NCBI GenBank assembly: GCA_005779305.1
Contig: SXJR01000112.1
Location: 1 to 35,694, forward strand
Direction of reading: 5' to 3'
From: Myxococcales bacterium
Lineage (GTDB): Bacteria > Myxococcota_A > Polyangia > Haliangiales > Haliangiaceae
Length of the DNA stretch: 35,694 nt
Below the pieces are notes generated by a model. That model was given only the letters and a program-made list of their open reading frames with translations. It searched no databases and had not been told where the DNA came from. The translations under genes and the position numbers were made by a program. Positions 17,551 through 34,692 of the stretch are shown piece by piece (the stretch's first letter is position 1; each line of letters starts with the position of its first letter).

Positions 17551-18876
17551 TCAGCGCTCGCCATGGCGCTTGATCAGCGCGTAGAGCGACATCCGGCTGA
17601 TGCCGGCGGCCCGAGCCGCCGCGGAGACGTTGTCGCCGTGGACCGCAAGCAACCCCTCGAGGTAGCGGCGCTCGAAGTCGTCGAGGACCCGCTGGCGCGC
17701 CTCCTTGTACGGGAGGCCCAGGTCGATCGGCGCCGGTGCCGCGGTCCGCGGTGGATCGATGCTGCCGGGCGCCGACGCGGCGCCCAGCACCGCGCACTGC
17801 TCGAGGAAGTTCCGCAGCTCGCGCACGTTTCCGGGCCACGCCGCACGCCCGAGCGAGGCGACGAACTCGGAACCTTGCAGCTCGAGCGCCACCTCCGGCG
17901 GCACGCGACCGGCGCGGCCAAGATCGCCCAGGATCGCTTCGACCAGGAGCGGCAGATCCTCCGGGCGACGGCGCAGGGGCGGCAGCTCGACGCGTACCAC
18001 GGCCAGGCGGTAGTAGAGGTCGGCGCGGAATCCGCCGCTGTTGACCTCGGCGCGCAGATCGCGATGAGTCGCCGCGATCACGCGCACATCGAGCGGCGTG
18101 GGCGTGGCGGCCCCGACGCGGCGAACCTCGCGCGCCTCGAGGACGCGGAGCAGCTTGGGCTGGAGCTCGAGCGGCAGCTCGCCGATCTCGTCGAGGAAGA
18201 CGGTGCCGCCCTGCGCCGCCTCGAAGGCGCCGACGCGGCGCACGGCGGCGCCGGAGAACGCGCCCCGCTCGTGGCCGAACAGCTCGGCCTCGATGAGCGT
18301 CGCCGGGATGCTGCCGCAATCGATGACGTGGAGCGGCGCAGGGCCGCGCCGACCGGCCTCGTGCAGCGCGCGCGCCGCGCCCTCCTTGCCGGTCCCGGTC
18401 TCGCCTTCGATCAGCACCGTGACGTCGCTCCCTGCCGCCCGCTCGAGCACGGCGAACGCCGCCCGCATCGCCGGCGACCGCCCCACCAGCGACCCGAAAC
18501 GGGTGCGCTCCGACAGCGGAATGGCGACGGTGCGGTCGGCGAGCTCGAAGCGCAACACGGTGCGCCCGCAGCGGATCAGGCTGCCGTGCCGCAACCGCGC
18601 CTCCTGGATCGTGACTCCGTCGACGGAGGTGGCGTTCTTGCTCCCCAGATCGCGAACGCGGACGCCACTCTCGCCGCCCTCGACCTCGCAGTGGAAACGG
18701 GACACCGTCGAGTCCTCGATCGCGAGGTCGTTGCTGGCGGCCGAACCGATCGTGCACCGCGCCTGGTCGCGCGCCCACACCGCGCCCGCCGCGGGGCCCT
18801 CGATCACCTCCAGGCGGAAGCCGCGGACGCGGGGCTCGTCGTCGCCGGCGATCAGGTCCGTGGCGCCCGCGCTCAT
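17551..18876 (-). CDS. FHA-domain sigma-54-dependent transcriptional activator
   Basis: A 441-residue protein. Residues ~40-85 form a forkhead-associated domain ([33 protein letters not shown]), which binds phosphothreonine. Residues ~130-360 are an AAA+ sigma-54-activating domain with Walker A GETGTGKE (~157), the sigma-54 contact loop GAFSGA (~202, Ser instead of the usual Thr), and Walker [10 protein letters not shown] (~228). A Fis-type helix-turn-helix closes the protein ([29 protein letters not shown]). There is no receiver domain, so the input is likely phosphorylation, matching the Ser/Thr kinase gene whose stop overlaps its start (ATGA). It probably drives sigma-54 promoters; a good one occurs at 33294 and none was seen directly before prkA. 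Confidence 0.94.
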
Positions 18877-21704
18877 GGCAGCACCGCCAGCCGGGCGTCG
18901 GCGGCCTTCACCAGCGGGTCGTCGGGCCGACGCAGCCGGGCCAGGGCATCGCGCTCGGCTCGGGCGCCGGCGCGATCACCGGCGATCAGCGCCGCTTCGA
19001 GCCGCCACATCCGGCAGCGCCCCACCGCGCCGCCCCAGGCAGACACCATCCGACGCGGCTGCACGATCCCGCCGCAGGTCGCGGCGGCGGCCGTCACGTC
19101 GCCCTGGGCCCGTTCGAGACGGGCGATCTCGACCAGCTCGAGGAAGGCGATGCCGGCGTCCGACTCGCCGTCGAACGCGCGCCGCCACCCTGCCACGGCG
19201 GCGGCCAGGTCCCCCCGTCGCTCGGCGGCGCATGCGCCGGCGGCCGCCGCGATCGTGGCGACCGGCGACGCGAGGCTTCGCTCGAGCTCGTCGACGTCGC
19301 CGACCCGGCAGGCGAGGAGGACTCGCAGCGCCGAGACCACGAGCCCCTCGCGTCGCGACGGATGGGTGGCCTCGCGCACCTGGTCGAGGATCGAACGTAG
19401 CTCCCGCGGGTCCCGCTCGGAGACCAGCGCCACTGCGGCGAGCATGCCGACCCGTACCGACCGCTCTAAGCCGGGGACCGCGACCGCCGCAGCCTGGCGC
19501 ACGGCGTCGTCGGCGGCGCGCAGCGCGACCGGCTCCCCCTGGGCCGCGGCCAGCATCCAGCGGTGCTCGATGCTCTCCTGGGGGAGCACGGCGCTGATCT
19601 CGCGGGCGAACTCGAGCTGTCCGCGCAACGCGTACGCGGCCACCGCCCCGTCGATCACGTAGTAGTAGCCGGAGTCGGTGCGACCGGCGTCGAACCGGGC
19701 CTCGAAGCTGGCCAGCGCGGCGTCGTAGTCGCGGCGCGCGATCGCCACCAGCCCCTCCCAGCTCTCGAGCACGCGCCCCTGCGAGACGTCGATGCCGTCG
19801 AGCAGGTCGGCCAGCTCGGCCGGCGGGGCGTGGAGAAGGCGGTACTCGAGGACGTGGATGATCCCGGTGAGGAGCTGGGGGTAGTGACCGCGCAGCCGAT
19901 CGTGGACTGCCATCGCGGCGCGAGGCTGGCCGGCGTGGAACAGCGCCTCGAACCAGCCATAGAGGATCTCGCGGTCCTCGGGGTAGCGAGTCGCTTCGCG
20001 CGCGAAGTGCTCGACCGCCGCCGCGTAGTCGGCGTCGAGAAAGAGCTCCAACCCATCGACGAAGGCGCGCCGGGTCGGCGCCAGCCCGCTCCGATCGATC
20101 CGGTCGAGCTGTCCCTTCACCTCGCCCGGAGCGCCGCCGCTCCACCAGAGGGCGATCGCCAGGTAGTAACGGGCCTCCTGGTTGCGGGCATCGAGCTCGA
20201 CGGCGTGCGAGAGCGACGCGGTCGCGGCCGCGAGCTCGTGGCGCTCGAGCGCGGCCGCGCCTTCGATCATCGCGCGTTGCGACGCCTCCGCGGGGCTGGG
20301 CTGCACCACGGCGCGGGCACCGGTCAGGCGCTCGACCAGGGCCGGCGCCAGCGCGCGCATCTCGGCCGACACGGCATCGCGGCTGACCCGCGCGCGGTGC
20401 GTGAACACCTGGTGGCCACGGCGGTCGAGCGCCTGGACCTCCACCTCGAGCTCGCCTCCAACGGCGTGCAGCGCTCCACTCACGACCGCGTCGGCGCCGA
20501 GCGCGTGGGCGGCCTCGCGCCAGGCGACGGGGCTGGCATCCGGTGAGGCCAGGCGGGCACGGATGCGCGAGGCCTCGATCACGGTGATGCCTTCGACGCG
20601 GAGCATCTCGCTGGCGAGCACGTGGGGTAGGCCGTGCGCGCTGTAGTCGAGCGACGGGTCGCCGGTGCGGTCGGCGAACGGGACGAAGGCGATACGGCGG
20701 GCGCCCAGGGGTTCCTGCCGGCCCCCGGCGGACGCGACCGATCGCCGCTGGGCGAGCGCCAGCCCGGCGACCAGCGCGGTGACGAGGATCGCGGCCAGCA
20801 CCACGGTGCCGGTGCGCCGGACCGGCGGCACCAGCGCGGCCTGGAGCGCGATGGCGTCGGAGAAGCGGTCGGCGGCCCGCTCGGCGACCGCGCGCGCCAC
20901 CGTCCGCGCCAGGCGCCGATCGCCGGTCGCCGCATGCACCGCGCCGGCGACGTCGGTCGCGCGCTCGCCGTCGACGTGCAGCGGCTGGCCCGTGAAGAGC
21001 TGGAACATCGTGGCACCGGCGGCGTAGACGTCGACGCCTGGCTCGGTGGCGCGGCCGCGCAACTGCTCGGGCGCCATGTACGCCGGTGTGCCGACGCGGA
21101 CCCCGGTCGAGGTCAGCTCGCTGTCCGCGAAGGTCGCGACGCCGAAATCGGCGAGCTTCACCCCACCGTGGCGGTCGAGCAGCAGGTTGGCCGGCTTGAC
21201 GTCGCGGTGGACGATGCCGGCGCCGTGGGCGGCCGCCAGCGCGCCGACCAGGGCGCTCGCGATGCGCCGCGCCTCGGGCAGCGCCACCCGCTCGCGGCGG
21301 AGGCGCTCGGCGAGCGACTCGCCGTCGACCAGCTCCATCACCAGGTACTCCCCCTCGGTGTCGACGTCGTGGATCGTGACGATGTTGGGGTGGTGCAGCA
21401 TCGCGGCGGCGCGCGCCTCGCGCACGAAGCGCACGCGATGCTCGGCGTCGCGGCGCTCCGGGGCCAGGCGCTTGAGCGCGACGGTGCGGCCGAGCGTGCG
21501 ATCGACGACCTCGAACACCTCGCCCATGCCGCCCCGCCCGAGCAGGCGCACCAGCTCGAAGCGGCCAGGCAAGGACGCCGCGATCGCGGCGAGGTCGGTG
21601 GTCTCGGCGAGCCGGCGCGCTGGCGCCTCCGCCGACCCGGTGGGCTGCGGGTCGGGATCGAAGGTCTCGGTGGGGTCTCCACCCTCCCCCCGGTGGGCCG
21701 ACAT
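18873..21704 (-). CDS. Membrane Ser/Thr protein kinase with TolB-like and TPR regions
   Basis: A 943-residue protein. Residues ~50-290 are a Hanks-type kinase: glycine loop [19 protein letters not shown], catalytic [12 protein letters not shown] (~164), DFG (~185) and [13 protein letters not shown]. One membrane helix follows (~295-315, [17 protein letters not shown]). The outside part begins with a TolB-like domain ([21 protein letters not shown]) and then a long helical region with TPR-like helices. All kinase catalytic residues are present. The ATG at 21704 is supported by TACGCT at -12 to -7 and by the position of the first domain. Its stop codon overlaps the start of the FHA activator gene, so the two are made together; the activator is the likely substrate. 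The ligand sensed outside is unknown. Confidence 0.95.
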
Positions 21705-21710
21705 CGAAGG

Positions 21711-21716
21711 AGCGTA
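21711..21716 (-). promoter_or_regulatory. Leaderless-type -10 box (kinase gene)
   Basis: TACGCT, CCTTCG, then ATG at 21704 on the minus strand: hexamer at -12 to -7. No Shine-Dalgarno sequence. This is the probable promoter of the kinase-activator pair. Confidence 0.5.
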
Positions 21717-21753
21717 TCGCGGCAGGCGGCGCGGCGATACCGAGCGGCTCGGG

Positions 21754-23832
21754 TCAGATCGGCCGGGGTCGAGCCCCGGTCCGGCGGCGGAGGACCACGA
21801 GCGCGAGCAGCCCCCCCGCCAGGCTGGCCAGCGCCAGCACGCCGAACGGGAGCGGCGGCGCGAAGCGCAGCTCCACCTCGTGCCGACCGCTCGCCAGCGG
21901 AAGGCCGAGCATGGCCGGGCCGGCGCGCACGACCGGCGCGGGACGACCATCGACGCGCGCCCGCCACCACGGGTGGTAGGCCGCCGAGACCAGCAGGAGC
22001 CACGGTGGGCCGGCGGTGTCCGGCACGTCGAGCCCGAGGTCGATGGCCGCGGCGGCGGCGCGGCGAGCGATCAGCGGGCGCGGTCGCTCGGTACTGGCCG
22101 CGGCGGCGGCCATGAGCGCGGCCTGGGCCGCGCCAGGGTCGGCACCGTCGATCGACCCGAGGTCGCAGCGGCGACACACCACGGGCATGACGCCGCGGGC
22201 GAACAGCCGCGGCGCGATGTCGTTGATCACCGCGACCGCCTGGCTCCGATCGGCGCGCAGCGGCGGCGTCGTGCGCACCAGGTGGAAGCGGGTCGGCGGT
22301 GTCTCGCCGACCACCAGCGCGTGGGTGTCGTCACGCCAGGCGACCGACAGCCCGGATGGCAGCTCCGGAGGGACGCCGCGGGCGACGATTGCGACGACGC
22401 CGTAGAGCGCGAGCCCCGCCGACGACGGCTCGAAGTCGATCACGTAGGCGGTGGACGGCGAGTCGTGGAAGCCCCGCGACATCGAGAGCAGCGGCGGGCG
22501 CCGCGCCAGCGCCGGCAAGGTCGCCAGGTACGGCACGGTGCGGGTCCTCAGCTCGGGCAGCGTCATGATCCGGCCCTCGCGGTGCGCCAGCTCGGCGGCG
22601 AGCGTGCCGAGCGCCCCGGCGTGGCCCGGGTGCAGGCCGCGCTGCGTGGTCCAGGCTCGACCCGCGATCAGCGACACCGCCAGCGCGCCGACGCCCACGG
22701 CGGCGATCGTGTCACCGCGCGAGTGATGGCGCGCCGACCAGCGGGCGATCGCCGCGGCGCCGGACGCGACGGCCACGGCGGCCGAAACGATCGCGCACGC
22801 GTGCACCCCCGCGACGAGTCGCACCGGCTCGATCACACCGCCGGGCAGCCAGCGGAGCCCACCCGCGAGCGCGGCCACGGTGAACCCGACCGTCACGATC
22901 AGCGCGCGCCCGGCGCCGCGCCCGGGCGCGGCCCGGCCCACCACCAGGCCGGCGAGGGCGAGCGCGCCCACCCACGGCGTTCGGCCGGCGTCGGTGAGCT
23001 CGCCGCGGGCGAGCGCGGCGAGGACGCCACGCCAGTCGTGGTGTCCGGCGACCGGACGAGGGGCGAGCAGCCCACCCTGAGCGTCGAGGAGCGCGACCAT
23101 GGGGATCCACCACCACGCCGTCAGCAAGGCGGCGGCGGTCACCGCCCACAGCGCCCGCGCGCGATGCGGGGTGCGCTCGACGCTCACGTGCACGGTGACC
23201 GCGAACAGGCACCACGCGCTCAGCACCGGGTGGCAGAGGATCAGCGCCGCCAGCGCGGCCGCCGCCGACCGCACGCCCGTCCCGTCCCGCGCCGTCCGCA
23301 CCAGGCCGCCCCAGGCCAGCGGCAGGAGGGCACCGGCCCACACCTGGCTGACCAGGCCCGACCCGGCCAGCGTCCGCAGCCCGAGGCCGAAGCCGTCGGG
23401 GTCGAGCACCATCGGCGCGAGCAGGCCAGCCGCGATCGCGGCGCCGCGGGTCAGCCCGAGCCAGCGCGCACCGAGCCACCAGGCTGCCGGTGTGACCGCC
23501 CACGCCAGCGCCGCCAGCGACATCACGATGACCGGCGCGGCGTCGTCCCCGACCACGGCGACGATCGCCGCCGCCGTCAGGAGCGGCAACGGCTGGTACG
23601 TGACGACCAGCGGATACCCGAGGTTGGGCCCGTCGTACCAGGCCACCAGCTCGCCGCGGCGCAGGGCCGCCGCCAGCGCCTGCACCTCCGCGATCGCCGA
23701 CGGCAGGTCGCCGTCGGTGGGCCAACCCGAGAGCGCCCAGGGCAACGCGGCCGCGAACAGGGCGACGGCCATCGCGGCGATCAGCCACTCCGGCCGCGGC
23801 AGCGCCGACGCTGCGAGCCCGCGGGCGCTCAC
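21754..23832 (-). CDS. YfhO-like multi-span membrane protein
   Basis: A 692-residue protein with roughly a dozen hydrophobic helices in the first ~470 residues and a soluble C-terminal part that ends in another helix. The tail carries AYHPWWRARVDGRPAP ... GLPLASGRHEVELRF, the beta-rich signature of YfhO-type proteins, and the N-terminal part has the GT-C-like layout of glycosyl- or polyprenyl-linked transferases (WYDGPNLGYPLVVTYQPL). These proteins are thought to modify cell-envelope polymers such as teichoic acids or lipids in Gram-positives; the target in this organism is unknown. The GTG start at 23832 overlaps the stop codon of the upstream lipoprotein gene by 4 bp (GTGA), so the two are translationally coupled. 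Confidence 0.75.
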   Translation of the reverse strand: MSARGLAASALPRPEWLIAAMAVALFAAALPWALSGWPTDGDLPSAIAEVQALAAALRRGELVAWYDGPNLGYPLVVTYQPLPLLTAAAIVAVVGDDAAPVIVMSLAALAWAVTPAAWWLGARWLGLTRGAAIAAGLLAPMVLDPDGFGLGLRTLAGSGLVSQVWAGALLPLAWGGLVRTARDGTGVRSAAAALAALILCHPVLSAWCLFAVTVHVSVERTPHRARALWAVTAAALLTAWWWIPMVALLDAQGGLLAPRPVAGHHDWRGVLAALARGELTDAGRTPWVGALALAGLVVGRAAPGRGAGRALIVTVGFTVAALAGGLRWLPGGVIEPVRLVAGVHACAIVSAAVAVASGAAAIARWSARHHSRGDTIAAVGVGALAVSLIAGRAWTTQRGLHPGHAGALGTLAAELAHREGRIMTLPELRTRTVPYLATLPALARRPPLLSMSRGFHDSPSTAYVIDFEPSSAGLALYGVVAIVARGVPPELPSGLSVAWRDDTHALVVGETPPTRFHLVRTTPPLRADRSQAVAVINDIAPRLFARGVMPVVCRRCDLGSIDGADPGAAQAALMAAAAASTERPRPLIARRAAAAAIDLGLDVPDTAGPPWLLLVSAAYHPWWRARVDGRPAPVVRAGPAMLGLPLASGRHEVELRFAPPLPFGVLALASLAGGLLALVVLRRRTGARPRPI

Positions 23833-25013
23833 ATGCCGTCGACCTGATAACCCCACGATCCGGACGTGTAGTGGCCGGCCGTGGGTTGGCCCCAGCCGCC
23901 GCCGAAGACCCAGCTTCCCACCTTCTTGCCGAGACCCGAGTCGACGGTGGCGAGGTTGCTGTCGGTCCCAGGACGCGTCGAGGAGCTGGAGCGATACATC
24001 CCGCACACGCTCGTGCAGACCTCCTTGACGTGGTTCGCGATGGTCGGACCCACGCTGGGAACTGCGCAGCTCCCCTGGATCTGCGCGGCGAGCTGACCGC
24101 ATCGACCGAACATGGCTGCCTCCGCGAGGGCGTCGGTGTTGCTGTTATGACCGAACTCCGGCACCGCGAACGGGATCCAGTAGGTACCGCTGCCGGCCTT
24201 GGCGTTGTCCCAGGCCGCCCACCCGTCTCCGCTGTACACCGCGCGGGCGGAGAAGAGCGCGAACCACGCCGAGCCGTCCTCGGGGCCCAGGTGCAGCGCG
24301 GGCGGGGCCGTGTAAGCATCGTTGCCGCAGTTCCGATCGCAGAAGCCGTCGGTCATCGCCACGCCGACGCACCACTCGATCGCGCCGAGGCGGGGACCAT
24401 CATTGGCCCCGCCCGGGGCGCGGAACACGAACGCGGAGATCGACGACGCGTTGGTCATCTCGTGGTTGACGGTGGCAGAGCGAAGCCCATCGGTGTTGAT
24501 GGTGCGCCCGTGGTTCGCGGTGCCAGCGCCGATGCTGCGGCTCGGGTAGCCGTAGAGCTGATCGCCGTTGTACCACTGCGGCCGGTTCTTCCAGCCACCG
24601 TATTCGTCGTACGCGATCGCGCCCTGCTCGCGGATCACGCCGAGCCCGACGTGCCAGCCGACGACCGTGTGCAGCAGCGCATCGAGGACCGCGCGCAGCT
24701 CGCTCACCGACGAGAGCGCCACGGTCACCTGGTTGCCGAGCGAATAGACCGGGTAGTTGGTGCCGGCCAGCGTCCAGGTGTACTTGGTCTCCGCGTACCC
24801 GGTCCCGATACAGCTGGTGGTGCACGGCAGCGGGTTCGGGCAGTTGTACGGCGGATTCGTACACGGACAGGCCGCGTTGCCGGCACCGTAGCCTCCGCTG
24901 CCGCTTCCGCCGCCCTCCTCCTGGATCATCTCCGACAGGTCGGGGTCGACGTCGTCGACGCATCCCGAGGCGCAAAGGAGCGCGAACATGACCGCCACGT
25001 GGATGTTCCTCAT
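23829..25013 (-). CDS. Unknown Cys-containing lipoprotein
   Basis: A 394-residue protein not assigned to a family. The ATG at 25013 gives a lipoprotein signal (MRNIHVAVMFALLCASGC), so it is probably lipidated. A Glu/Gly/Ser-rich spacer is followed by a Cys cluster (CPCTNPPYNCPNPLPCTTSC), and further Cys lie at ~230-250, ~330 and ~350, suggesting disulfide bonds. WHVGLGVIREQGAIAYDEYGG loosely recalls the His-containing strand of permuted papain-like (NlpC/P60-type) enzymes, but no matching catalytic Cys is clear. The frame extends upstream of the ATG without a signal peptide. Coupling with the YfhO-like gene suggests a joint envelope role. It has no obvious Shine-Dalgarno sequence. Confidence 0.6.
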   Translation of the reverse strand: MRNIHVAVMFALLCASGCVDDVDPDLSEMIQEEGGGSGSGGYGAGNAACPCTNPPYNCPNPLPCTTSCIGTGYAETKYTWTLAGTNYPVYSLGNQVTVALSSVSELRAVLDALLHTVVGWHVGLGVIREQGAIAYDEYGGWKNRPQWYNGDQLYGYPSRSIGAGTANHGRTINTDGLRSATVNHEMTNASSISAFVFRAPGGANDGPRLGAIEWCVGVAMTDGFCDRNCGNDAYTAPPALHLGPEDGSAWFALFSARAVYSGDGWAAWDNAKAGSGTYWIPFAVPEFGHNSNTDALAEAAMFGRCGQLAAQIQGSCAVPSVGPTIANHVKEVCTSVCGMYRSSSSTRPGTDSNLATVDSGLGKKVGSWVFGGGWGQPTAGHYTSGSWGYQVDGM

Positions 25014-25098
25014 GCGATGGCAGTGGTGCAACCGAGATGCCCGCGGCGGGAGCCATGACCGACGCGTGGTTGCGCGACGGCGCGCGCGTCCGCTGATT

Positions 25099-25139
25099 GG
25101 CGCGGCTGACACCTGGTGCCGACGAGTGTCAGGCGCGCC
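25099..25139. repeat. 14-bp inverted repeat (REP-like hairpin)
   Basis: The arms GGCGCGGCTGACAC and GTGTCAGGCGCGCC pair over 13 of 14 bases around a 13-bp loop. The loop-side sequence CACCTGGTGCC and the GTGTCAGG core recall palindromes that occur as dispersed REP elements. A partial match, GTGTCAGGCACC, occurs at 33118. Confidence 0.6.
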
Positions 25140-25220
25140 TTACAGGGCGCGGCCTCGACGCACGTGGCCATGGCCTGGGCCAGCCGGTTGCCGATATCAC
25201 GCGCCACGCTCCAAGCTCGG

Positions 25221-25445
25221 GTGAGCGCGAGGCTGCTCGGCGCGGTCGTGGGCGGCGTGGTCGGGGTCGGGGCGATCGTGGCAACGCCGGCTCCCGCCGA
25301 CGCGTGCACGTGTGACCGTCTCACGCTAGCGGAGGAGGACGCGCGGGCGATGGCGAGTTGCTGGGCGGCGCGTGGGTGGTCGTGCCCGCGGCTCCTGGGG
25401 AGTCCCGCGAGGGCGTCCCACGTCACGCCGGCCGAGGTGTCGTGA
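25221..25445 (+). pseudogene. Possible remnant of a small secreted Cys protein
   Basis: The segment 25014-25698 has no convincing gene. Within it a GTG at 25221 opens 74 codons that begin like a signal peptide (ARLLGAVVGGVVGVGAIVATPAPADACTC), followed by CDRLTLAEEDARA, resembling the start of small myxobacterial secreted Cys proteins. The reading then becomes unlike protein and stops. In the same frame after the stop, VSRVEGKALCVSYREDC again looks protein-like. This suggests a decayed gene with a frameshift, but chance is not excluded in such GC-rich DNA. Confidence 0.25.
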
Positions 25446-25698
25446 GCGCGGGGATCCCTCGGCCGCGAGTTCCGCAGCGGCCCCGCCCGGGCACGTGACT
25501 GCGTGGTGTCCAGGGTCGAGGGCAAAGCGCTGTGCGTCTCGTACCGCGAGGACTGTCTGAGCGGACGAGGGCCCCCGCGCTCGCGGCGCCGACGGCCGGC
25601 GAGCCCGAGGTCTCCACCGCCCTCTCGTGGAGTGTGCCCTCCGTCTCGGCCGCAGACGGCCTCGCTCAGGGCGGCCGGGGCGAGCGAGGGCGGCCGAC

Positions 25699-26823
25699 CT
25701 ACCGCATGTACTTGTCGACGGCGGCCTCGTGCTCGGCCACGGTCTTCGAGAAGACGTGGGTGCGCGGATCCTTGGCGACGAAGAAGAAGTAGTCGCTGCC
25801 GTCGGGCTTCATCGCCGCCTCCATGGAGGCGCGGCCGGGGTTGCCGATGGGTCCCGGGGGCAGGCCCTCGTGCTGGTAGGTGTTGTAGGGGTTGTCGCGA
25901 TCGTCGAGCTGGGCCCGGCGCAGGCGTTCGCAGCCGTCGGGTCTGGGCGGCACGGCCTTGCGGCAGGGCTCGTTCCACGCGATGCACGCGGCGCTTGGCG
26001 TGGGTGACACCAGGCAGCCGTACCGGATCGTGGGATCGGTCTCGAGCCGCTTGGGCTTGAAGGTCGGCGAGACCATGCGATTGACGAAGACCTGGGCGAT
26101 GCGCGGCCGCTCGGCCGGATCGACCGCCTCCTTCTCGACGATCGAGGCCAGGATCAGGACGTCGCGATCGCTCCACTGCAGCCGATCTTTCAGCTTGCCC
26201 AGCGCCTTGCCGTGCTCGCGCGCGAGCCCGTTCCAGGTCGCCCGGTGAGCCTCGATGAGCCGCTCGAGCACCTTGCGAGGCGCGGTCGGCACCACGAACT
26301 TGTAGGTGTCGGGGAAGAGCAGGCCGTCGACCGAGTCGCCGGCGATGCCGTGCTTGCGCAGGAACTCGGCGTCGCGGGCCAGGGCCTCGAGCTCGGAGGC
26401 CTTGGCGACGCCGGCTTCCTCGATCAGCGCGAACAGCTCGAGCATGTTCTTGCCCTCGGGCAAGGTCACCGCCACCGAACGCGCCTGCACGCCGGCGATC
26501 AGCGCGTCGAGTACCTCGTGCGGGGTCATGTTGTCGCGCAGCGTGTACTCACCGGTCTTGACCGCGGTGGTGGCGCCGCGGCGCATGGCGTAGAAGCGGA
26601 ACCACGACGGGCGATCGATGATGCGATGCTGGGCCAGCCGGCTCGCCACCTGCGGGAACGACATGCCCTTGTCGATGGTCACCTTGACCTCGACGCCGGT
26701 GCCGGCGTGACGCTGGTCCGGATACTGGTAGAGCTGCCAGCCGTACCAGCCGGCGACGCACAGCGCGATCGCCAGGGTGCCGAGCACCACGAGCAACGCC
26801 GTACGGAACGCCTTCTTCGACAT
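25699..26823 (-). CDS. mltG: Endolytic murein transglycosylase MltG
   Basis: A 374-residue protein. An N-terminal membrane helix (~7-29) anchors it with the catalytic part in the periplasm. A LysM-like region ([22 protein letters not shown]) is followed by the YceG domain: [12 protein letters not shown], the catalytic Glu in [10 protein letters not shown] (~225-232), [10 protein letters not shown] and [18 protein letters not shown], all characteristic. MltG cleaves nascent glycan strands and sets their length. A ~40-residue Cys-containing insertion ([20 protein letters not shown] ...) after the LETDPT motif is not usual in the family. The gene lies 14 bp after ruvX; this mltG-ruvX pairing is common. 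Confidence 0.95.
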
Positions 26824-26837
26824 CAGTCTCGTGGAGC

Positions 26838-27266
26838 CTACGTGATCTCTCGTCGTCGTGCGTCGAGCCAGCCCTGCAAGATCACCGCGGCCGCCTGCTT
26901 GTCGATCACCTGCTTGCGCCGCGCCCGCGACACATCGGCCTCGATGAGCACGCGCTCGGCCAGGGCGGTGGTGAAACGCTCGTCCTGCTCGTGCAATTCC
27001 ACCCCGGCCGGCAGCGCGGCGCGCAGCGCCTCGGTGAAGACCTGCACCCGCTTCGCCCGCGGACCGATCTCGCCGGACAGCTCGTAGGGCAAGCCCACGA
27101 TGACAGCTCCCGCCTCGCGGGCTTGCACCAGGGCGATGACCGCGGTCACGTCCGCCGCGGTGCCGCGTCTTGCCAGCACCAGCTCCGGATGCGCGGCGAG
27201 CCCGAGCTCATCGGACACGGCGACGCCGATGGTCTTCATCCCGACGTCGAGACCGAGCGCGCGCAT
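26838..27266 (-). CDS. ruvX: RuvX/YqgF family Holliday-junction resolvase-like nuclease
   Basis: A 142-residue protein of normal family length. The RNase H-like fold residues are visible: [16 protein letters not shown] (first catalytic Asp), [28 protein letters not shown] and [14 protein letters not shown] (last Asp). Family members process 16S rRNA precursor ends or act on DNA junctions. The ATG at 27266 is chosen; the N-terminus MRALGLDVG is typical. TAGGAA lies at -12 to -7 preceded by TGC and there is no Shine-Dalgarno site. mltG follows in the same direction, 14 bp later. Confidence 0.95.
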
Positions 27267-27272
27267 CGCTGC

Positions 27273-27278
27273 TTCCTA
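27273..27278 (-). promoter_or_regulatory. Leaderless-type -10 box (ruvX)
   Basis: TGC-TAGGAA, GCAGCG, then ATG on the minus strand. The last base of the hexamer is A rather than T, so this is the weakest of the seven boxes. Confidence 0.4.
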
Positions 27279-27841
27279 GCACGAGCTGGCTCGTCGAGAT
27301 GTGGCGTACTCACCGACGCCGACTCACGAAATTCGAGTGGCTACTCGAGTTGCCGCTGCTGCGACGCCCCTGGCGCAGTGCCTGGCAACTCCATCAGCCA
27401 TTTCGTCAACGGGTGGTGACACGAGGTGACAAAGCTGCAGAGGTTCGAGCCGTAACGCCGCGAAGCTTCATCGCGCGATCTCGCGCACAGAGTTGGAACG
27501 CGTGTTGCTCTGGTTTCGGTCATGATCAACGTGACTCCTTGCCCACGCGCCCAACCGGCGGTGCAAAAGGCGCGGAACACACGCTGAGCATCAGACGAAG
27601 CAACTCCTCGCGAGCTGACGCGTCTGAGTATTGGAATCAGTCCGCACCCTCTGCCGGTTGTACAGGCAGCCCTTCAACGCACCTCCCCCGCACCCTCCGA
27701 GGCACCTACCCCCCCTACACACGCGCGACATAGCGAGAGAAAATTTCGACTCAGTGGCGCCGAACGGTCTCCCTCCCCCTCATCCCTTTCGGCATCCCCC
27801 TCCCACTTGAGGCAACCAGTATCTCGTCGTGATCAGCGCCC

Positions 27842-27882
27842 GGCGCTGCATGGTTCCCCCCACTGCAGCGCCTTCTTTTTTT
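27842..27882 (+). terminator. Strong intrinsic terminator, no gene upstream
   Basis: GGCGCTGCA (27842-27850) pairs perfectly with TGCAGCGCC (27864-27872), with a 13-base loop, and is followed by TTCTTTTTTTC. It is the best terminator in the window. A preceding C-rich tract could also serve as a Rho site. Confidence 0.8.
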
Positions 27883-27958
27883 CGGGGCCCGTGGACATCA
27901 ACCTCGGAGCCCACGGCCCCACGAGGCAGGATCTGGCACCCGGACGTACGAAACGTGA

Positions 27959-27978
27959 TCGCGCTGACGTCAGCGCGA
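27959..27978. repeat. Perfect 20-bp palindrome over a stop codon
   Basis: TCGCGCTGACGTCAGCGCGA is its own reverse complement and includes the stop codon (27970-27972) of the outer-membrane-like gene. It can form an 8-bp stem with an ACGT loop and may act as a terminator hairpin or a binding site. Confidence 0.7.
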
Positions 27979-28641
27979 GAACACCACGCCGAAGTTGAAG
28001 AACGCGCCCGTGTCCCACGGCGACGGCCCGGTGGCCATGTCGCACGGCCCGGCGCAGGTCGGCGGCGCGTCGGCCTTGTAGGTCGGGTCGCGCGCGACCA
28101 GGCCGCGGAACGCGTAGTAGAAGCCGACGTAGTTGGGCTTGTCCTTGCCGACCCGCACCGTCATCTGACCACCGGCGCCGAAGGCGAGATCGCGGCGCGA
28201 GAGCTCGCCGCCGCCGTACCACTGAACGAGCTGGTTGCCGACGCCGCCCTCGACCCAGATGTCGCCGCGGATCGGCACGTCACGCCCGCCGAACGCGGCG
28301 ATCGAGTACCGCACGTTGGCGCCGACGCGATGGAGCACGCCGCGGATCGGCGCGTCGTACTCGTACGCGCTCTGCCCGTGGGACAGGAAGTCGTACTCGC
28401 CGAGCAGCGCCAGCTTGCCCGAGCGCATGCCGCCATCGACATGAAGGCCGACCGCGGCGCCGCCGACCGGGCCCACGCTGTAGCCGCCGGCCAGGACCCC
28501 GAACGCGCCCTCGAAGCGGGGCTTCGCCCATGCCTTGGCGCGGGCGTCCTTGCAGTCGCTGTCCCAGCAATCGGCGGCGGCAGGGGCCGCGGCCGCGGCG
28601 AGAGCGATGACGGACAGTGACGCGGTCGCGAGCGTTGCCAT
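27970..28641 (-). CDS. Predicted outer-membrane beta-barrel protein
   Basis: A 223-residue protein. A signal peptide (MATLATASLSVIALAAAAAPAAA-D) precedes a mature part with alternating hydrophobic/polar strands and many Gly and aromatic residues (FEGAFGVLAGGYSVGPVGG, GKLALLGEYDFLSHG, NYVGFYYAFRG, FFNFGVVFSR at the end). The terminal aromatic-rich strand fits an outer-membrane barrel. Two Cys pairs are present (CWDSDC near the N-terminus and CAGPC near residue 200). No family name can be given. The start is well supported: AGGAGG lies 4 bp before the ATG. It lies 41 bp after the DedA gene and is probably cotranscribed with it. Confidence 0.75.
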   Translation of the reverse strand: MATLATASLSVIALAAAAAPAAADCWDSDCKDARAKAWAKPRFEGAFGVLAGGYSVGPVGGAAVGLHVDGGMRSGKLALLGEYDFLSHGQSAYEYDAPIRGVLHRVGANVRYSIAAFGGRDVPIRGDIWVEGGVGNQLVQWYGGGELSRRDLAFGAGGQMTVRVGKDKPNYVGFYYAFRGLVARDPTYKADAPPTCAGPCDMATGPSPWDTGAFFNFGVVFSR

Positions 28642-32047: not shown

Positions 32048-33005
32048 GCCTGTCCCGCGCGGAGGCGACGGGCCGCGTCGCAAGAAGGTGGTCATCACCG
32101 GCATCGCCGGCCGCCTCGGCCGCGTGGTCGCGCGCGCCCTCCATCACGACCCGCGCTTCCTGATCGAGGGGCTCGATCGCCGGCCCTTCCCGGGCAAGCC
32201 CAAGGACGTCATTCACCACCAGGTCGACCTCCGCAGCAAGAAGGCCCGCGACGTGTTCCGCACCGGCGAGGTCGACGCCCTCATCCACATGGGGGTGATG
32301 CACGATCCGCGGGCGACCACCGCCGAGCTGTACTCGTGGAACGTGGGCGGCACGTCCAAGCTGCTCGAGTACTGCGCCACGTACAACGTCCCCAAGGTGG
32401 TCGTGCTGTCGAGCGCCAACGTCTACGGCCCGCGCCCGGAGAACCCGCAGTTCCTCACCGAGGAGGCGCCGCTGCTGGCCGCCCAGCGGTTCCCGGCCAT
32501 GCGCGATCTGGTCGAGATCGATCACCTGGCCTCGACCTTCTTCTGGAAGGCGCGCGACATCGAGACCGTGATCCTGCGCCCGGTCCACATCCTGGGCCGG
32601 GTTCACAACGCGCCGTCCAACTACCTCCGGCTCGATCCCATCCCGATGCTGCTCGGATTCGATCCGATGGTGCAGGTGATCCACGAGCGTGACATCGCCG
32701 AGGCGGTCACCTGCGCGCTGACCCCGGGCGCACGCGGCATCTACAACATCGTCGGCCCGGGCGAGGTGCCACTGTCGGTCATCGTCCGCGAGCTCGGTCG
32801 CCGCACCCTCCCGATCCCGCACCCGATCGCGAAGCCGCTCTACGCGCTCGCCTTCCGCCTCGGGCTGTCGGGGTACCCGGTTGCCGAGTTCGACTTCATC
32901 CGCTACGTCTGCATGGTCGACGGATCGCGCGCCGAGAACGAGCTCGGGTTCCGCGCCCGCGCGACGCTCCGGGAGACGATCCGAGCGGTCGACGACCCCG
33001 ACTGA
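32034..33005 (+). CDS. NAD-dependent epimerase/SDR-like protein, atypical active site
   Basis: A 323-residue protein. The nucleotide-binding motif TGIAGRLG (~22-29) and the DxD/NVGG strands (WNVGGTSKLLEYC) are typical of the extended SDR family, and SSANVYGP holds the usual Ser position. The YxxxK catalytic pair is absent: the corresponding region reads RFPAMRDLVEIDHLAS with neither Tyr nor Lys in place. The protein may bind NAD(P) and a substrate without classical catalysis, or use a different residue. It overlaps the acyltransferase gene by 14 bp. ATG 32034 is the only start before the Rossmann strand. The family function is probably sugar- or lipid-related. Confidence 0.85.
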   Translation: MSSGEPVPRGGDGPRRKKVVITGIAGRLGRVVARALHHDPRFLIEGLDRRPFPGKPKDVIHHQVDLRSKKARDVFRTGEVDALIHMGVMHDPRATTAELYSWNVGGTSKLLEYCATYNVPKVVVLSSANVYGPRPENPQFLTEEAPLLAAQRFPAMRDLVEIDHLASTFFWKARDIETVILRPVHILGRVHNAPSNYLRLDPIPMLLGFDPMVQVIHERDIAEAVTCALTPGARGIYNIVGPGEVPLSVIVRELGRRTLPIPHPIAKPLYALAFRLGLSGYPVAEFDFIRYVCMVDGSRAENELGFRARATLRETIRAVDDPD

Positions 33006-33093
33006 CCGGCCGGGAGGTGGGGCGGTAAGGGGCGGAAGGACCACACCGACTGTGAACGGATTGCTACACCCGACCGTGGACGAACGTTGACGC

Positions 33094-33111
33094 AGACCGT
33101 TTGACGGTTTT
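33094..33111 (+). terminator. Hairpin with T run downstream of the SDR gene
   Basis: ACCGT-TTG-ACGGT followed by TTTTC, about 90 bp after the SDR stop codon. The stem is 5 bp, or 7 with a G-T pair, so termination is probably partial. Confidence 0.5.
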
Positions 33112-33293
33112 CGCGCGTGTCAGGCACCAAGGGATCGCAACGTGACGGATGCCCCGATCCAGGCCCGCCCGGTTGGGTGGGCAACCGAAATCCCGGACGT
33201 TTCTGTCATAGGTCAGGCGGTGGCGATGGATTTCCACCGGTACGACCACCCAGGACCGCACTGATTCCGCCGCGTTCGATCTCCCTGACAGAC

Positions 33294-33309
33294 TGGCACG
33301 ACGACTGCT
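33294..33309 (+). promoter_or_regulatory. Sigma-54 (RpoN) promoter
   Basis: TGGCACG-ACGA-CTGCT matches the consensus TGGCACG-N4-TTGC(A/T) with one clear mismatch and has the exact GG-N10-GC spacing. The transcript would start near 33320, giving a ~55-nt leader with a GGAGGA ribosome site before ATG 33375. The rest of 33006-33293 holds the terminator above and no gene. Confidence 0.7.
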
Positions 33310-33374
33310 TTGTCGTTTGTCCGACCTACCAACCTCGCACCCGCTCTGCTCGCCAGGACCACCCGGAGGACGCC

Positions 33375-34181
33375 ATGAAGAAACTGCTCGCACTCGTTGC
33401 CTTGGTCGCGCTCAACGCGACCGGCTGTACCCTCTACTTCGGGGAGAGTGACGACGACGACGTCGTGGTCACCAACTACTGCGAGCCGTCCTCGAACGGC
33501 ACGGTTTGTTACACCTGCTACGAGTACGAGGACGGGTGGTCGGAGTGCTTCCCGGACAGCTACGGGTGCAGCAGCGACAACGACTGCGCCACCGGCTGCT
33601 TCTGCGAAGAGAGCACCGGCGAGTGCAACGAGGCCGGCTGGTGCGCGAGCGATTCGGACTGCGGTGGTGGACTGGTGTGCGACTGCTCCGGCTCGTGCGC
33701 CGACCCGAGCCTCGGCGCCCGCGACTGCAACTCCTGCCAGGTCTCCGGCTGCCCGGTCGGCTTCGTGTGCGCCGCCAACGGCTCGTGCGTGCCCGACCCG
33801 AACCAGCCCGGCTGCACTGACGACGACCAGTGCGCCGCCGGCTGCTTCTGCCTCGACGGGTACTGCGAGGAGAGCTCGATCTGCACCAACGACAGCCAGT
33901 GCCCGTCGGGTCAGACCTGCGACGAGGTCCGCAACACCTGCGTGCCCGGCACCCCGCCGCCCCCGCCCCCGCGCCCGCCCCCGCCGCCGCCGCCCCCGCC
34001 CCCGCCGCCCCCGTCGTGCGGTGATCTGACGAACCAGGCCGCGTGCGACGCGCGCTCCGACTGCCGCTCGATCATCGGTGGGACCAACTGCCACCGCCCC
34101 GATGGCAGCACCTGCCAGATGAACGACACCAACTGCATCTGCGAGCCGCCCTTCACCTTCCAGGGCTGCGTCCCGAGCTGA
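33375..34181 (+). CDS. Cys-rich repeat lipoprotein with polyproline linker
   Basis: A 268-residue protein. The lipoprotein signal (MKKLLALVALVALNATGC) is clean. The body is a set of Cys-rich repeats with the pattern CxxDxxCxxGxxC (DNDCATGCFC, DSDCGGGLVC, DDQCAAGCFC, DSQCPSGQTC), typical of myxobacterial surface lipoproteins with disulfide-knotted modules. A polyproline segment follows (PPPPPP, one Arg, then 13 Pro) and a last Cys module ends the protein. Translation of 13 prolines in a row needs elongation factor P. GGAGGA precedes the ATG at good spacing. The sigma-54 promoter upstream suggests activation by an enhancer-binding protein such as the FHA activator at 17551; unproven. Confidence 0.88.
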   Translation: MKKLLALVALVALNATGCTLYFGESDDDDVVVTNYCEPSSNGTVCYTCYEYEDGWSECFPDSYGCSSDNDCATGCFCEESTGECNEAGWCASDSDCGGGLVCDCSGSCADPSLGARDCNSCQVSGCPVGFVCAANGSCVPDPNQPGCTDDDQCAAGCFCLDGYCEESSICTNDSQCPSGQTCDEVRNTCVPGTPPPPPPRPPPPPPPPPPPPPSCGDLTNQAACDARSDCRSIIGGTNCHRPDGSTCQMNDTNCICEPPFTFQGCVPS

Positions 34182-34209
34182 GCTGACTGACGGTCGCAAA
34201 GACCCCGCG

Positions 34210-34245
34210 ACGGAGCCGGATTGGATTCGGCTCCGTTCTGCGTTT
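34210..34245 (+). terminator. Intrinsic terminator after the Cys-rich lipoprotein gene
   Basis: ACGGAGCCG and CGGCTCCGT form a perfect 9-bp stem, extended by one wobble and one A-T pair, followed by TCTGCGTTT. It separates the Cys-rich lipoprotein gene from the next. Confidence 0.75.
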
Positions 34246-34251
34246 AACAGG

Positions 34252-34257
34252 TACGCT
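34252..34257 (+). promoter_or_regulatory. Leaderless-type -10 box (34264 gene)
   Basis: TACGCT, ACCTCC, then ATG at 34264: hexamer at -12 to -7. Confidence 0.5.
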
Positions 34258-34263
34258 ACCTCC

Positions 34264-34692
34264 ATGGGCTTTGGCTTCGAGGAGACGATGAGCGGAACCT
34301 GGACCCGGGACGGGGTTGAGCGGCCCTTCTCGTTCTCCGTCAGGGTGCGCTCGGGGCCGCTGCGCCACTTCCGCAAGGACCAGGTGGCAGACATGGAGGG
34401 CACCGTCGACGCCGGTGGGCTGGCCAGCCGGCAGCCGCTGCGAGGGACCCTGCTCCTCAAGCCCTTCCTGGGCCGGGTCATCCGCTACGAGTTCGACTTC
34501 ACCGGCGACGACGGCCGGCCCTACTCCTTCGCCGGCCAGAAAGACATCCGCTGGCTCTCGCCGGTGCGCACCTGGACCCAGCTCCCCGGCGAGGTCCGCA
34601 ACGCCTCCGGCACTCTGGTCGGCACCGCCATGACCCACTTCGACATGAAGAAGGACGGCGTCACCTTCATCCGCAGCTGGAAGCCCGCCTGA
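34264..34692 (+). CDS. Small protein resembling a GMC-oxidoreductase-associated domain
   Basis: A 142-residue protein, all predicted beta-strand, with no signal peptide or membrane helix. The sequence pattern (GFEETMSGTWT, GTVDAGGLASRQPLRGTLLLKPFLG, YEFDFTGDDGRPYSFAGQKDIR, AMTHFDMKKDGV) resembles the extra domain found attached to GMC-family (cholesterol-oxidase-like) oxidoreductases, here standing alone. This is a tentative resemblance from memory; no catalytic motif is visible. It probably binds a lipid or acts as a partner protein. The gene is between a terminator and the next lipoprotein gene, whose start lies 8 bp after its stop, so those two are probably cotranscribed. Confidence 0.6.
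   Translation: MGFGFEETMSGTWTRDGVERPFSFSVRVRSGPLRHFRKDQVADMEGTVDAGGLASRQPLRGTLLLKPFLGRVIRYEFDFTGDDGRPYSFAGQKDIRWLSPVRTWTQLPGEVRNASGTLVGTAMTHFDMKKDGVTFIRSWKPA

Follow-up and report, generated by a model that had tools for sequence, protein, structure and literature searches.

The gene for a cysteine-rich predicted lipoprotein is very probably served by a dedicated, enhancer-dependent sigma-54 promoter. The gene lies in a DNA stretch of 35,694 nucleotides (the window), contig 24 in a genome of 8.08 Mb and 611 contigs. We take the family of this bacterium to be Kofleriaceae, class Polyangia, and counts given for "the family" refer to it. The reading as a dedicated enhancer-type promoter follows from the conservation of the core, a repeat at a fixed distance upstream, and a box that occurs with the core at one gene. 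Comparison between related genomes establishes, at the level of sequence, these three elements, their fixed spacing and their concentration at the lipoprotein gene. The features of the region are as follows.

33051 to 33068, plus strand: box A, TGTGAACGGATTGCTACA (TGT-N12-ACA), found in the genus only
33196 to 33207, plus strand: candidate activator (enhancer-binding protein, EBP) site, the inverted repeat GACG-TTTC-TGTC, picked out by an EM motif search and by its fixed spacing
33264 to 33269, plus strand: GATTCC, a short conserved block; five of its six columns are invariant among the seven genus members
33275 to 33289, plus strand: box C, TTCGATCTCCCTGAC, separated from the -24 element by 4 nt, found by sequence logo
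33294 to 33309, plus strand: putative sigma-54 core promoter (-24, TGGCACG; -12, CTGCT)
33320, plus strand: predicted transcription start, 12 nt past the C of the -12 element, from the usual -12 geometry
33375 to 34181, plus strand: ORF for the cysteine-rich predicted lipoprotein, 268 aa, with homologs in relatives
34210 to 34236, plus strand: hairpin, 9 bp and GC-rich, 3' of the stop codon, a likely terminator

The core, TGGCACGACGACTGCT, reads TGGCACG-ACGA-CTGCT on the plus strand. Its GG-N10-GC spacing and single mismatch to the consensus TGGCACG-N4-TTGC(T/A) bear out both properties that an earlier, sequence-only reading of the window had ascribed to it. By itself, a match of this kind in a single window is weak and within chance: with up to two mismatches allowed, the window holds three sites where shuffles average 4.85, and sites with up to one mismatch number 131 genome-wide against 68 for the reversed pattern. 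A consensus sigma-70 scan gave no match where the expectation is also zero, and is thus of no help in deciding the promoter type. RpoN is encoded in the same genome (PF04552, 215.5 bits).

All seven members of the genus carry a homolog of the lipoprotein gene, each with TGGCACG-nnGAn-TGCTTTG in the equivalent position, 52-65 nt 5' of the start codon (65 nt between core and ATG in the window). The TTTG extension 3' of the core, which reaches 33312, is kept across the genus. Alignment of the upstream 300 nt showed 13 of the 16 core columns, and 16 of 19 in the extended element, to be invariant; the spacer taken as baseline (the stretch from the upstream repeat to GATTCC) has 11 invariant columns of 54, and the leader 8 of 47.

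The wider search used a profile made from residues 1-120 of 23 homologs. It matched 68 of the 289 genomes of the class at E <= 1e-8, and 50 of these yielded 52 upstream regions, G007 contributing three genes. Left out were two genomes for which no start was obtained (G036, G044), G183, whose listed promoter and N-terminus are identical to those of G019, 15 genomes matched at E 8.5e-12 or weaker (12 of them without the N-terminal portion), as well as secondary matches. Sites with one mismatch or none lie within 150 nt of the start in 33 of the 52 regions, where 200 dinucleotide shuffles per region lead one to expect 0.04; with two mismatches allowed, the count is 43 against 0.54. Ten of the 33 regions come from other families (G022, G027, G028, G052, G059, G060, G096, G116, G127, G175). 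This conservation supports the earlier proposal that a sigma-54 promoter precedes the lipoprotein gene. Nine regions hold no site within two mismatches (G007b, G007c, G008, G035, G084, G156, G192, G046, G054), so that sigma-54 control would not be universal in the wider lipoprotein family.

The homolog profile had no match at E <= 1e-8 in four family genomes (G013, G159, G162, G167), and a phylum-wide search at E <= 1e-12 matched 15 of 377 genomes, all inside the class. The 21 homologous loci in named genomes belong to uncultured or metagenome-assembled Myxococcales, Kofleriaceae or deltaproteobacteria. The loci of G019 and G183 (L163, L164) are labelled as different families and share the same listed promoter and lipoprotein N-terminus, which suggests a shared or misbinned contig. 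A search with the core and its TTTG tail, TGGCACGNNNANTGCTTTG, returned 12 matches in 10 of 36 genomes and none for the reversed pattern; eight of the 12 are at the lipoprotein gene and four at other places. In G003, a second TGGCACGnnnAnTGCTTTG site (L109, G003:C19:21002-21020) stands 9 nt 5' of another ORF with a lipoprotein-like start, MRSSLALVSIATVVTAC.

The second element emerged from an EM search of 22 family upstream regions, from which three near-identical genus members had been left out. The motif found, AAATCCCGGgCATTTyTGTCAG (width 22), scored a log-likelihood of 351, against 71-82 for five mononucleotide shuffles run with fewer restarts. In the window, the repeat is the core of AAATCCCGGACGTTTCTGTCA (33188-33208). 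The pattern G[A/G]C[A/G]-N4-TGTC ends 86-87 bp 5' of the TGG in the -24 element in 24 of the 28 regions, from 26 genomes, that represent the family, where dinucleotide shuffles would place it anywhere at all in 0.66 regions. Three family regions devoid of a sigma-54 site (G007b, G007c, G008) also lack the repeat, and two regions have the site and no repeat (G012, and G023 of the same order outside the family). Outside the family, a perfect GACA-N4-TGTC is present in 3 of 24 regions (0.10 expected), at 86 bp in G022, 65 bp in G026 and 54 bp in G024; the last two, whose cores carry two mismatches, thus have it about two and three helical turns closer to the core. A distance that is fixed or helically phased would fit an enhancer that has to face the holoenzyme. 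The earlier reading had proposed looking for an activator site between 33130 and 33290, and the repeat at 33196-33207, by its conservation and spacing, is a candidate for it.

Elsewhere the repeat pattern is found at 27 places in 12 genomes, against seven for its reverse. Ten of the 27 are the lipoprotein promoter, in ten of the 12 genomes, the pattern having missed that of G003 and G017; the remaining 17 are all without a sigma-54 site 86-87 bp away. Among the latter, a repeat copy at L211 has a two-mismatch sigma-54 site 9 bp away, and L219 (G002:C28:90567-90582) holds a perfect GACA-N4-TGTC copy, CGGACACTTCTGTCCG, with a one-mismatch sigma-54 site 40 bp off on the opposite strand, a pair that makes a second target of the same activator possible. 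Relaxed repeat matches also fall within two loci of G006 (L227, L236) that encode a sigma-54 activator gene, and are possible leads to the regulator.

Box C, with the family consensus TTCGATCCCGTTGCC, also given as TTCGATCnnnnTGCC, ends 4 nt 5' of the -24 element. Searched together with the core at up to three mismatches, it occurs once per genome in 16 of the 36 genomes, every match being at the lipoprotein gene and the reversed control giving none. At this threshold the other 20 genomes, including G006, G010, G012 and G016, contain no such combination. The repeat and box patterns were counted in the very sequences that had yielded them, so that their restriction to the gene is informative and their presence there is not. 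Semi-independent support is limited to the fixed position, the restriction to the gene and the cases at the level of the order, and these patterns may overlook less strict sites of that activator. Farther upstream, box A has one match per genome in the seven genus members and none in the other 29 of the 36, its reversed control giving one match over all 36; it is possibly a second distal site.

The lipoprotein ORF is preceded by GGAGGA, and its product begins with MKKLLALVALVALNATGC, a signal peptide read by eye that ends in the lipobox NATGC. The lipobox cysteine, residue 18, is invariant in 23 of 23 homologs, and of the 26 invariant columns in an alignment of 18 sequences, 17 are cysteines. 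The product is probably a disulfide-rich lipoprotein processed by signal peptidase II. The frame stays open upstream to 33117, and an earlier start is disfavoured by the lipobox signal peptide at 33375 and by indels between promoter and ATG within the genus. The genome holds a single gene of this family at E <= 1e-8. A Pfam search of the protein gave no match, hence no PA14 domain; TIGR04201 scored 22.2 against a curated cut-off of 25 (E = 1e-4, residues 170-183), which leaves the protein below the membership threshold; and the predicted fold, of poor quality (pTM 0.26), resembled nothing in the PDB at E <= 0.001. All 11 homologs examined have a hairpin after the stop codon, a count made without a shuffle control, which points to a gene that is probably transcribed alone. 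Matches to an acyltransferase and an epimerase lie upstream in 17 of the 21 named loci, and a small ORF and SecA downstream in many of them. A search of 32950-34300 for known RNA families returned none up to E = 1.

The proposed mechanism would run as follows. RNA polymerase with RpoN would rest as a closed complex at the -24/-12 element (33294-33309), and a dimeric AAA+ enhancer-binding protein would occupy the inverted repeat, centred at about -118. DNA looping would carry this protein to the holoenzyme, where ATP hydrolysis would open the promoter complex. A monocistronic mRNA with a leader of 55 nt, counted from the predicted start at 33320, would then be translated into the lipoprotein. 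Box C, beside the -24 element, may be a second conserved contact, for an accessory protein or a regulator. Sigma-54 dependence, activator binding, looping, the start site and the terminator are all steps that we infer. A more far-reaching reading is tentative and rather doubtful: that of a Kofleriaceae class of sigma-54 promoters with an extra TTCGATCCCGTTGCC element fixed 4 nt 5' of -24 and a rigidly phased single-dimer enhancer, with a one-gene regulon, a dedicated activator and a second DNA-binding protein.

The most obvious regulator for such a promoter would be the activator encoded in the window itself, whose presence the sequence-only reading had rightly noted and which domain matches place, with a neighbouring kinase, as follows.

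17551 to 18876, minus strand: FHA-AAA+-Fis sigma-54 activator, with FHA, Sigma54_activat and Fis domains
18873 to 21950, minus strand: Ser/Thr protein kinase, its gene overlapping the activator gene by 4 bp

That this FHA activator, switched by the neighbouring kinase, drives a real sigma-54 promoter at the lipoprotein gene is nevertheless very unlikely, although the two are encoded 11-16 kb from the promoter and their ORFs overlap. They occupy a segment of about 8 kb (about 17551-25699) between PrkA and YceG, adjoining the PrkA-DUF444-SpoVR genes. In G002 and G005, of the same genus, PrkA adjoins YceG without an intervening match to kinase or activator, and identity is 76-98% for PrkA, YceG, RuvX, VTT, S66, acyltransferase and epimerase; the same adjacency, again with no kinase or activator match, is seen in other genera (L127 of G014, L130 of G017). 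All four of these relatives retain the promoter and the upstream repeat. The segment therefore looks like an insertion in the lineage of the window, and the promoter is older than it. In the six other genus members, which all keep promoter and upstream repeat, the best matches of the FHA activator reach 52-61% identity and lie on contigs (some of them short) other than that of the lipoprotein gene. Moreover, 101 matches to PF00158 (Sigma54_activat), fragments among them, were counted genome-wide. The suggestion that the lipoprotein is a target of the kinase and FHA activator is hence not supported, since synteny and orthology in the relatives show the activator not to be conserved with the promoter, and it is probably not the promoter's regulator. 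A profile for EBPs, with nine sequences from the window's own genome as seeds, detected no activator gene in the flanks of the lipoprotein loci (L002-L030, L117-L201; up to 6 kb, many shorter), its sole match being a weak, non-homologous one (L031). The positive control of this profile was 30 of 30 loci, its seeds having been drawn from the same set.

Two other explanations concern the core itself. TGGCA could be kept as half of a dyad operator, TGCCA-N3-TGGCA, formed by box C and the -24 element and bound by a repressor or another regulator instead of sigma-54. Indeed, TGCC lies exactly 4 nt 5' of TGGCA in most family regions, but the -12 half, TGCTT, is equally conserved at exact spacing, the window has TGAC and so a broken dyad, and the -24 and -12 elements persist without the box in distant families (G096, G116, G127, G175, G028, G052), all of which makes an operator very unlikely. 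A chance match, with the gene using some other promoter, is close to negligible in probability: the abundance of one-mismatch sites in the genome and the lack of any excess in the window would allow it, but it has to contend with the 33 of 52 regions and with the near-invariance of the extended element relative to the spacer. A dedicated enhancer-dependent sigma-54 promoter is the reading that we retain.

A further locus of the window, at 27494-27882 on the plus strand, may encode a small RNA, with a core at about 27715-27882. G002 and G005 match this core at 95% identity, and three other genomes of the family (L131, L134, L130) at 68-72%. The candidate has C-rich loops, and a strong hairpin resembling a terminator is accompanied by a T run. 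A consensus fold of six sequences by RNAalifold has 21 pairs, nine of them kept through two-sided changes, and an Rfam search of 27260-28000 returned a single sub-threshold match, outside the core. In six of six sequences a sigma-54-like site lies 89-205 nt upstream, with one mismatch in three, two in two and three in one. The plan recalls that of Pxr of Myxococcus xanthus, a sigma-54-driven small RNA (PMC5568312, PMC5684412), the likeness being one of layout.

In a genome with about a hundred activator-domain matches, the lipoprotein promoter is a target whose parts are legible from conservation alone. In our searches these parts stand together at one gene per genome, so that a single DNA fragment could serve to capture the activator. 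A cysteine-rich lipoprotein kept in several genera thereby gains a testable mode of regulation, and the case illustrates how a nearby activator gene can mislead about the regulator.

Several known systems invite comparison. In the Nla28 network of M. xanthus, the sigma-54 core consensus is given as TGGCACG-N4-TTGC(T/A), and the MXAN5040 promoter, TGGCACG-N4-CTGCT, has a core identical to that of the window (PMC9765219). Nla28 promoters likewise carry activator half-sites near the core, but these are described as tandem CT(C/G)CG(C/G)AG half-sites of varying spacing, whereas the window has one inverted repeat at a fixed 86-87 bp. The sigma-54 promoter of Escherichia coli glmY also has upstream activator sites, the QseF sites TGT-N12-ACA (PMC6075780), a pattern that box A fits; box A is however confined to the genus, and the widely kept site resembles GACA-N4-TGTC, so that the likeness to QseF sites is a lead only. 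As to the product, TIGR04201 (Myxo_Cys_RPT) is the cysteine-rich repeat of TraA (PMC3325183), a myxobacterial envelope protein with similar short repeats; the TraA paralog is reported with a type I signal sequence, unlike the predicted lipoprotein of the window, which has no PA14 domain. Envelope functions are likewise under predicted sigma-54 control in computed regulons that include Polyangia (PMC12316311), where the lipoprotein gene family goes unmentioned among the matches listed (12 of 16 places), and no published account of this family was recognisable in the portions of the literature that our search returned. The same paper states for M. xanthus that losing rpoN may be lethal. Sigma-54 promoters of this plan are known, and the lipoprotein promoter adds a well-conserved member to them, unusual in that box C is fixed in place and that the elements are concentrated at a single gene.
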